From: Hippea maritima DSM 10411
Lineage (GTDB): Bacteria > Campylobacterota_A > Desulfurellia > Desulfurellales > Hippeaceae
Reading direction: 5' to 3'
Length of the DNA: 64,000 bases
NCBI RefSeq assembly: GCF_000194135.1
Contig: NC_015318.1
Location: 1,499,001 to 1,563,000, forward strand
Positions 37,516 to 39,282 of the stretch are shown piece by piece. A program made the position numbers and the translations under genes. Under the pieces are notes generated by a model. It was not told the DNA's origin. It saw only the letters and a list, made by a program, of their open reading frames with translations, and searched no databases. Within the stretch, counting starts at the first letter, position 1. Every line of letters starts with the position of its first letter.

Positions 37516-37592
37516 GCGCCTGTAGCTTAATTGGATAGAGCAGCAGACTTCGGATCTGCGGGTTGGGGGTTCGAGTCCCTCCAGGCGCACCA
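37516..37592 (+). tRNA. tRNA-Arg (anticodon TCG, reads CGA)
   Basis: A 77-nt cloverleaf with the CCA end encoded. The acceptor GCGCCTG (37516-37522) pairs with CAGGCGC (37582-37588). The anticodon stem GCAGA/TCTGC encloses the loop CTTCGGA with anticodon TCG. The T arm carries TTCGAGT within a five-pair stem including one G-U pair. It stands alone between the cydAB terminator and the trp leader. Confidence 0.95.
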
Positions 37593-37627
37593 AAGTTTTA
37601 AGGTAATCTGCAGAATGAAACTACTAT

Positions 37628-37656
37628 TTGACAACCACTAAATATTGTGATAGAAG
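37628..37656 (+). promoter_or_regulatory. Promoter of the trp operon
   Basis: TTGACA (37628-37633), 17-bp spacer, TAGAAG (37651-37656). The predicted start near 37662 lies only a few bases before the leader ATG at 37666, so the leader peptide may be read from a very short or leaderless 5' end. No TrpR-like operator palindrome is obvious. Confidence 0.6.
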
Positions 37657-37665
37657 TAAATCGTT

Positions 37666-37743
37666 ATGGATTGTAAAGTTTGTTTTTTATTGAACATAAC
37701 TAACAAGCAGCTAAATAACTGGTGGTGGGGTAGCGATATGTAG
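37666..37743 (+). CDS. trpL: trp operon leader peptide with three tandem Trp codons
   Basis: A 25-codon frame runs from ATG 37666 to TAG 37743, starting MDCKVCF and ending NNWWWGSDM. Three consecutive TGG codons lie at 37720-37728. Upstream of ATG there is only a weak GAAG-like ribosome site. Its location between the trp promoter and trpE, the Trp run, and the RNA segments pairing around it match a ribosome-stalling leader peptide. It is too short for normal gene finders. The product itself needs no function; translation speed over the Trp codons is the signal. Confidence 0.85.
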   Translation: MDCKVCFLLNITNKQLNNWWWGSDM

Positions 37744-37804
37744 CTGCCCTGCTAATCGTTAACGGTTAGCCGCTTATTCTTGGCGGGCTTGCTGGCAGGG
37801 TAGC
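37707..37804 (+). promoter_or_regulatory. trp attenuator: pause (1:2) and antiterminator (2:3) helices
   Basis: Segment 1, GCAGCTA (37707-37713, inside the leader gene), is a perfect complement of TAGCTGC (37741-37747). Segment 2 (37743-37754, GCTGCCCTGCTA) also pairs over 12 bp, two of them G-U, with 37793-37804 (TGGCAGGGTAGC). The second helix crosses the first terminator helix, so the two exclude each other. A ribosome stalled on the Trp codons would cover to about 37740, freeing segment 2. A ribosome at the stop codon would cover segment 2 and favour termination. Confidence 0.75.
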
Positions 37805-37839
37805 CAGGAGGCTTGCTAAGGGTAAGCGGCTTTTTTATT
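37768..37839 (+). terminator. trp attenuator terminator 1
   Basis: AGCCGCTTA (37768-37776) pairs perfectly with TAAGCGGCT (37823-37831), immediately followed by a T-run (37831-37836) and ATTT. The 46-nt interior can fold further: CTTGGC (37779-37784) with GCCAGG (37803-37808). A smaller local hairpin, GCTTGC (37811-37816) with GTAAGC (37822-37827), is an alternative. It is mutually exclusive with the antiterminator helix. Confidence 0.75.
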
Positions 37840-37840
37840 T

Positions 37841-37890
37841 GGCCGCAAGCCTTAGCAAGAAAAGTTAAGGTTTGCGGCCTTTTTTATTTT
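37841..37890 (+). terminator. trp attenuator terminator 2, directly before trpE
   Basis: A 14-bp stem with one G-U pair: GGCCGCAAGCCTTA (37841-37854) with TAAGGTTTGCGGCC (37866-37879), 11-nt loop, then TTTTTTATTTT. It ends only 12 bases before the trpE start and sits right after terminator 1. Its 5' arm is also partly complementary to the 3' part of terminator 1. Confidence 0.9.
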
Positions 37891-37902
37891 ACGGAGGTTG
37901 TT

Positions 37903-39282
37903 ATGGAGGATTTTGTAAGGGCGTTTGATGAGGGTTTTGATGTTTTTGTGCTATATGAAGAGATAGAAGGGGATATGGACACACCGGTATCTATCCTAAG
38001 CAAACTGCTTGATGAGGAACATGTTTTCCTGCTTGAATCGGCAAAAGAGGACAAAACCTACAGCAGATTTTCCTTTATCGGCATAGCAAGGGATGTATTT
38101 AAAATAACAAAAGCCCAGGATCTAAACTTTGAACAGAAAAGGGTGTTTTCATCAGGCGGTTTTGGCAGCTTTAAGGGCGGTTATGTGGGCTATCTGGCCT
38201 TTGAGGCTGTGGGTCTTTTTGACATCTTAAGAAAACCCCTAACAAAAATCCCTGATGAGTTTGGCAGGTTCTTTCTTGTTGATGAGTTTTTGGTTTATGA
38301 CAACTACACAAACAGGCTATATGTAGCACTATCATATAATTTTAACAGAAACCTAACAGCCAAAAGCAACCTTGCAATAGCAAAGGATAGGCTTGCAAAC
38401 CTAAAGGATTTTATACTATCAAAAAAACCCAATAATCCAACAAAGCCGCAAAGGGCAAACCTGCTCTCAAGCATGTTTTCCAAGGATGAGTTTATAAGCA
38501 TCGTCAAAGAAACAAAGAAGCTCATAGAGGATGGTGAGGCTATTCAGGTTGTTTTGAGCAACTTCTTTCTTGTTGAAGGCATTGAACCATTTGAGTTTTA
38601 TAGAAACCTGCGCAGGATAAACCCATCCCCTTATATGTTCTTCTTCAAATCGGGAAGTTTCTATCTAAGTGGCTCATCGCCAGAAATCCATGTGCGCCTA
38701 AGGAATAGGAAAGCAACCATAAGGCCTATAGCTGGAACAAAACCCAAAACAAAAGACCTAAAAAGGATAAAAGAAGAGCTTCTGGGTGATGAGAAGGAGA
38801 TGGCAGAACACCTAATGCTTGTGGATCTGGCAAGAAACGATTTAGCCAGAATCTCAAAGCCGCCTGCTGTGACGGTGACATCATTTGCCAAACCGGAGGT
38901 TTACTCCCATGTCGTGCATCTAACCTCAAATGTCGAAGCGGATTTAGATGAGTCCATTACACCATACGATGTCATAGCAAACACATTCCCCGCAGGCACA
39001 CTGAGTGGCGCACCAAAGGTAAGGGCTATTGAGATAATTGACGAGTTTGAAAGATACCCCCGAGGTGCATATGGAGGATGCGTCGGCTATGTCGGATTTG
39101 ATGGCAATCTGGATATGGCAATAACCATAAGGACAGCCGTTTTTAACGGTAATACCTGTAAACTACAGGCGGGTGCAGGTATCGTTTATGACAGCAAACC
39201 AAAAAGCGAATACCTTGAAACGATAAATAAGCTTAAAGCACTTCTAAAAGCAGGAGGTTTAGATGATAGCTTTAATAGATAA
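37903..39282 (+). CDS. trpE: Anthranilate synthase component I
   Basis: TrpE makes anthranilate from chorismate with ammonia passed from TrpG. The N-terminal domain has VFLLESA near 40, matching the LLES tryptophan-feedback site. The chorismate-binding domain shows IRPIAGTKPKTKD near 275, DEKEMAEHLMLVDLARND near 292-309, and the late AGAGIVYDSKPKSEY motif. The start is the ATG at 37903 with GGAGG 5 bases upstream, giving 459 residues; the frame open from 37813 runs through the terminators. Control is expected at two levels, attenuation and feedback inhibition. It overlaps trpG by 20 bp. Confidence 0.96.
   Translation: MEDFVRAFDEGFDVFVLYEEIEGDMDTPVSILSKLLDEEHVFLLESAKEDKTYSRFSFIGIARDVFKITKAQDLNFEQKRVFSSGGFGSFKGGYVGYLAFEAVGLFDILRKPLTKIPDEFGRFFLVDEFLVYDNYTNRLYVALSYNFNRNLTAKSNLAIAKDRLANLKDFILSKKPNNPTKPQRANLLSSMFSKDEFISIVKETKKLIEDGEAIQVVLSNFFLVEGIEPFEFYRNLRRINPSPYMFFFKSGSFYLSGSSPEIHVRLRNRKATIRPIAGTKPKTKDLKRIKEELLGDEKEMAEHLMLVDLARNDLARISKPPAVTVTSFAKPEVYSHVVHLTSNVEADLDESITPYDVIANTFPAGTLSGAPKVRAIEIIDEFERYPRGAYGGCVGYVGFDGNLDMAITIRTAVFNGNTCKLQAGAGIVYDSKPKSEYLETINKLKALLKAGGLDDSFNR

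Follow-up and report, generated by a model that had tools for sequence, protein, structure and literature searches.

The window, that is, the whole stretch of 64,000 nucleotides analysed, belongs to the genome of Hippea maritima DSM 10411, which consists of one contig of 1,694,430 bases, and carries a trp operon whose gene order reads trpE-G-D-C-F-B-A, with TrpE first. Upstream of trpE are found a putative promoter, a short frame rich in Trp codons and two hairpins, both followed by T-runs (TTTTTTATTT after terminator 1 and TTTTTTATTT after terminator 2). A 25-codon leader with three tandem Trp codons had been noticed in an earlier sequence-only reading of this DNA, and it is present as described there (Table 1). 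At 37516-37589, immediately before the putative trp promoter, there is a tRNA gene that looks by eye like tRNA-Arg; its surroundings differ in the relatives shown.

Table 1. Features of the trpE upstream region (positions in the window)
Feature	Position	Strand	Remarks
Putative sigma-70 promoter	37628-37656	+	TTGACA, 17-nt spacer, TAGAAG; TTGAC position kept in relatives
Leader peptide frame	37666-37743	+	MDCKVCFLLNITNKQLNNWWWGSDM; ATG 37666, stop TAG 37741-37743; 25 codons; WWW leader in 18/18 relatives
Trp codons	37720-37728	+	TGG TGG TGG, read from sequence
Segment 1	37723-37734	+	Within Trp-codon part 37720-37734; pairs with 37743-37754
Segment 2	37743-37754	+	Alternative partners: segment 1 or 37793-37804
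Cap hairpin of antiterminator	37763-37792	+	Predicted fold; AGCCGCU with GGC-GGCU; occupies foot of terminator 1 5' arm
Segment 3	37793-37804	+	Partner of segment 2; sits in top of terminator 1
Terminator 1 hairpin (3:4)	37768-37831	+	28 pairs; T-run 37832-37840 after
Segment 4	37812-37831	+	Terminator 1 3' arm; complementary to segment 5 too
Segment 5	37841-37859	+	Terminator 2 5' arm and loop start; partner segment 4 or segment 6
Terminator 2 hairpin (5:6)	37841-37879	+	T-run 37880-37889 after; in 18/18 relatives
trpE	37903-39282	+	First operon gene; GGAGG site 37894-37898 just upstream

Conservation of the region was explored in 25 genomes of the Desulfurellia phylum, 18 of which, from three families, have trpE together with readable upstream DNA. 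All 18 carry, between promoter and trpE, a frame with tandem Trp codons whose predicted translation contains WWW, followed at the same place by terminator 1 and terminator 2. In each of these 18 relatives, 34-39 nt separate TTGAC from the first in-frame ATG, suggesting that the leader ATG lies at, or a few bases from, the expected transcription start. The leader would therefore probably be translated without a Shine-Dalgarno site, and possibly from a leaderless mRNA. A start of this kind is described for the trpL attenuator of Sinorhizobium meliloti, whose RNA begins at its ATG; this attenuator comes from a distant lineage and is drawn with one terminator (PMC7298713).

Folding of positions 37660-37890 yields -113.7 kcal/mol, versus -67.8 +/- 4.3 kcal/mol for shuffled sequences (z -10.7). 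This value, the presence of the arrangement in the corresponding position of 18 genomes and the coupled change found for each helix leave almost no room for chance hairpins in intergenic DNA beside a fortuitous short frame, a reading that conservation already refutes. The 1:2 helix of the window (37723-37734 with 37743-37754) amounts to -20.1 kcal/mol, and the Trp-codon stretch pairs with segment 2 in 18 of 18 genomes. A different 1:2 helix proposed previously (37707-37713 with 37741-37747, GCAGCTA/TAGCTGC) does exist, and recurs in the nearest relative (L002) only. The 2:3 helix (37743-37754 with 37793-37804) had been correctly anticipated, with 12 uninterrupted pairs that include two G-U pairs, as had the start of segment 2 within the leader stop codon, its first base being the last base of the stop. 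On geometry only, with the stop codon at 37741-37743 and segment 2 from 37743, a ribosome that has reached the stop would mask segment 2, and one stalled at the Trp codons would leave it free.

The nine pairs formerly quoted for 3:4 (37768-37776 with 37823-37831), ending in a T-run, were found as well, being only the foot of a hairpin of 28 pairs (37768-37796 with 37803-37831) of -49.8 kcal/mol. The second terminator is likewise present at 37841-37879 with its T-run, but it is not the stronger hairpin that it had been taken for (-28.1 versus -49.8 kcal/mol). The 2:3 and 3:4 helices, described as excluding each other, have no common base in the form then given, and thus are not exclusive as written. 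In the predicted folds exclusion results from the formation of 2:3 around an inner cap hairpin, which engages the foot of terminator 1, or from direct overlap. The RNA that a ribosome stalled on the Trp codons leaves uncovered is computed to fold into 2:3 in 18 of 18 genomes, the cap hairpin appearing in most of them (CCGCC-UCA-GGCGG in L008, AAGCCG with CGGCUU in L011); in L016-L018, the 5' arm of terminator 1 is itself the partner of segment 2.

The partner of segment 2 in the window species lies mostly in the top of terminator 1, and most of the stem of this hairpin has no base in common with 2:3. This would suit a reading in which segment 2 contacts the loop of the formed terminator 1, as a pseudoknot or kissing interaction, its regulation being indirect and terminator 2 being the true control point. 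Considering that (i) the cap hairpin over the terminator 1 foot is predicted in most genomes, and (ii) segment 2 pairs terminator 1 arm or loop bases directly in L016-L018 as well as in 43 of 43 Desulfobacterales leaders, such a loop contact seems very improbable. The idea that 2:3 and 3:4 simply coexist as a pseudoknot was dropped once the cap hairpin was seen in the folds. The antiterminator of the window (2:3, about -30 kcal/mol) is far less stable than 3:4, and so antitermination in the window species would have to rest on the order of synthesis.

Ribosome-mediated trp attenuation, as put forward in the sequence-only reading, is strongly supported by the WWW leader and by the persistence of 1:2, 2:3 and 3:4 throughout the phylum despite sequence change. 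In addition, no TrpR was detected above the Pfam cut-off in the 25 genomes by a search that does detect TrpR in E. coli, and attenuation may therefore be the main control of the trp operon.

That reading had rightly pointed to the second terminator as an oddity, while missing its link to terminator 1, which consists in the pairing of segment 4 with segment 5. The arms of both terminators resemble each other in the window, where 4:5 pairs CTTGCTAAGG...GCGGC with GCCGC...CCTTAGCAAG and forms a hairpin of -26.8 kcal/mol, roughly equal to 5:6. Among the relatives the sequence of 4:5 changes and the pairing persists; in L016-L018 the feet of terminators 1 and 2 differ, yet 4:5 forms through the top of terminator 2.

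Since the arms are too divergent for alignment, coupled change was evaluated by arm re-dealing instead of by a covariance model: one genome was taken from each of nine lineages and the arms were re-dealt among them in 362,880 orders. Orders equalling or beating the native pairing numbered 3,400 for 1:2, 67 for 2:3, 2 for 3:4, 2 for 4:5 (segment 5 re-dealt) and 1 for 5:6. As a control, the 3:6 pairing was used, which hairpins of common origin should likewise show. It turned out to be coupled too (174 of 362,880 orders), though more weakly, summing to -156 kcal/mol versus -193 kcal/mol for 4:5 over the Desulfurellia; in L008 and L010 it is the stronger of the two. Segment 4 with the terminator 2 loop alone showed no significant coupling across the nine lineages (33,070 of 362,880). 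Permutation tests keep no tree, and their counts are therefore not exact probabilities; the contrast between 4:5 and 3:6 is the safer argument from these sequences. On Desulfurellia data alone, a shared origin of the hairpins may account for the 4:5 coupling.

The similarity of the arms and the coupling of 3:6 in Desulfurellia are indeed what might be expected from a classical four-segment attenuator followed by an unconnected fail-safe terminator 2, with 4:5 as a by-product of similar, perhaps duplicated hairpins. Tandem terminators are, moreover, common as fail-safes in general. Nonetheless, an unconditional terminator 2 would shut the operon in starvation as well, and the persistence of 4:5 in L016-L018 despite differing hairpin feet also argues against this explanation. 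Further evidence on it is provided by a second group of organisms. A profile search of genome contigs with a TrpE alignment returned distant TrpE loci, Desulfobacula among them and none from Desulfurellia, and the Desulfobacula locus displays the same tandem-terminator arrangement. Searches around this genome gave a sample of 57 regions upstream of trpE that contain a short frame rich in Trp, one of them from a spirochaete, and a fold-based finder located tandem terminators in 45 of these. The arrangement is hence not particular to the Hippea lineage, since it also follows Trp leaders in most of the Desulfobacterales regions examined.

In 43 of those 45 regions 4:5 is strongly coupled (z -6.8, none of 20,000 re-dealings being as good), whereas 3:6 in the same 43 leaders stays at chance (z -0.7, 4,761 of 20,000); 4:5 is the stronger pairing in 42 of the 43. 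The core positions of 4:5 make standard pairs in all 22 leaders readable there, while the core of 3:6 shows three C-A mismatches in 17. In 43 of 43, the upstream segment 2 region is paired (2:3) with bases from the arm or the loop of terminator 1. Shared origin does not predict a coupled 4:5 beside a 3:6 at chance, and the fail-safe explanation is consequently regarded as rather unlikely. In a wider Desulfobacterota sample, roughly one in two of the Trp-rich frames detected is followed by tandem terminators.

The trpE upstream regions L116 and L125-L191, from the order of Desulfobacula, repeat a CCGTGG/CCACGG core in the arms of terminators 1 and 2. Such repetition would follow from a need of segments 2, 4 and 6 alike to match segments 3 and 5, though a shared motif for protein binding could also explain it. 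In loci from other phyla (L057, a Spirochaetes MAG, L041 and L093), short frames rich in Trp precede trpE with what looks like a single terminator.

On the sequence evidence as a whole, the trpE upstream region is probably a trp transcription attenuator of the ribosome-mediated kind, in which six segments and two intrinsic terminators form a relay. In its proposed operation we infer ribosome stalling, termination at both sites and a role of 4:5 as second antiterminator. With plentiful Trp-tRNA, the ribosome would reach the leader stop and segment 2 would be masked or held in 1:2; terminator 1 (3:4) would then form, and a polymerase reading through it would meet terminator 2 (5:6). When Trp is short, the ribosome would stall on WWW, and segment 2 would pair with segment 3, with the cap hairpin over the terminator 1 foot; segment 4, left free, would take segment 5 once made, so that terminator 2 would be blocked and trpE transcribed. 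A working terminator 2 would keep the operon shut in starvation unless it were opened, and one stalled ribosome probably opens both terminators. We also consider it fairly likely that this double-lock relay, with 2:3 followed by 4:5, represents a separate, widely distributed type of amino-acid attenuator maintained by selection in two phyla, Desulfurellia and Desulfobacterota.

The region resembles the enterobacterial trp attenuator (E. coli trpL, Rfam RF00513 Trp_leader) in its Trp leader peptide, its 1:2, 2:3 and 3:4 pairings and a terminator before trpE. It differs from it in having segment 3 mainly in the terminator top and in the second terminator, tied in by 4:5, where E. coli trpL has a single one. 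The window scored 14.8 bits for RF00513, below the gathering cut-off of 41, and none of 14 related leaders tested was called as this family; matches to mir-980, ncr1241 and others fell below threshold and were set aside as chance hairpin matches. An extra hairpin in the pairing chain is described for the his operon attenuator of Salmonella and E. coli (PMC1183508), which shares with the trp relay the alternating chain of 1:2, 3:4 and 5:6 versus 2:3 and 4:5. Its middle hairpin, however, is no terminator, while in the trp relay both 3:4 and 5:6 have T-runs and the codons are those for Trp.

Two adjacent Rho-independent terminators are reported for ermK of Bacillus licheniformis (PMC4335068, citing Kwak 1991), which are compared here as that later paper describes them. 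They stand under one leader peptide, as do those of 18 of 18 Desulfurellia and of 45 of the 57 regions in the Desulfobacterales set, but the signal of ermK, as described, is a macrolide antibiotic and its lineage unrelated, whereas the Trp codons here point to Trp supply. The rimP-leader of some Gammaproteobacteria has tandem terminators, the first of which may be countered by an antiterminator (PMC2965389), although without a leader peptide, which the trp relay has, and with NusA as the suspected regulator. Searches of the open literature yielded no description of the linked tandem-terminator design in these lineages or in front of an amino-acid operon, and its novelty is thus provisional.

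These results extend leader-peptide trp attenuation to Desulfurellia and many Desulfobacterota, and leaders not called by Rfam could be annotated in many genomes of sulfur- and sulfate-reducing organisms. Two terminators in series would multiply their efficiencies and could allow low basal expression without TrpR, provided that a single signal opens both, and the 4:5 arm lends itself to testing how the relay folds as it is transcribed. In the fourth family of the phylum, L025 has a WW leader (GWWFSIMS) and a single terminator before trpE, providing a natural one-terminator comparison. Finally, one genome of the Hippea group carries a fluoride riboswitch (RF01734, 46.2 bits; L003:1105-1168, minus strand) just upstream of the trp leader, on the opposite strand.
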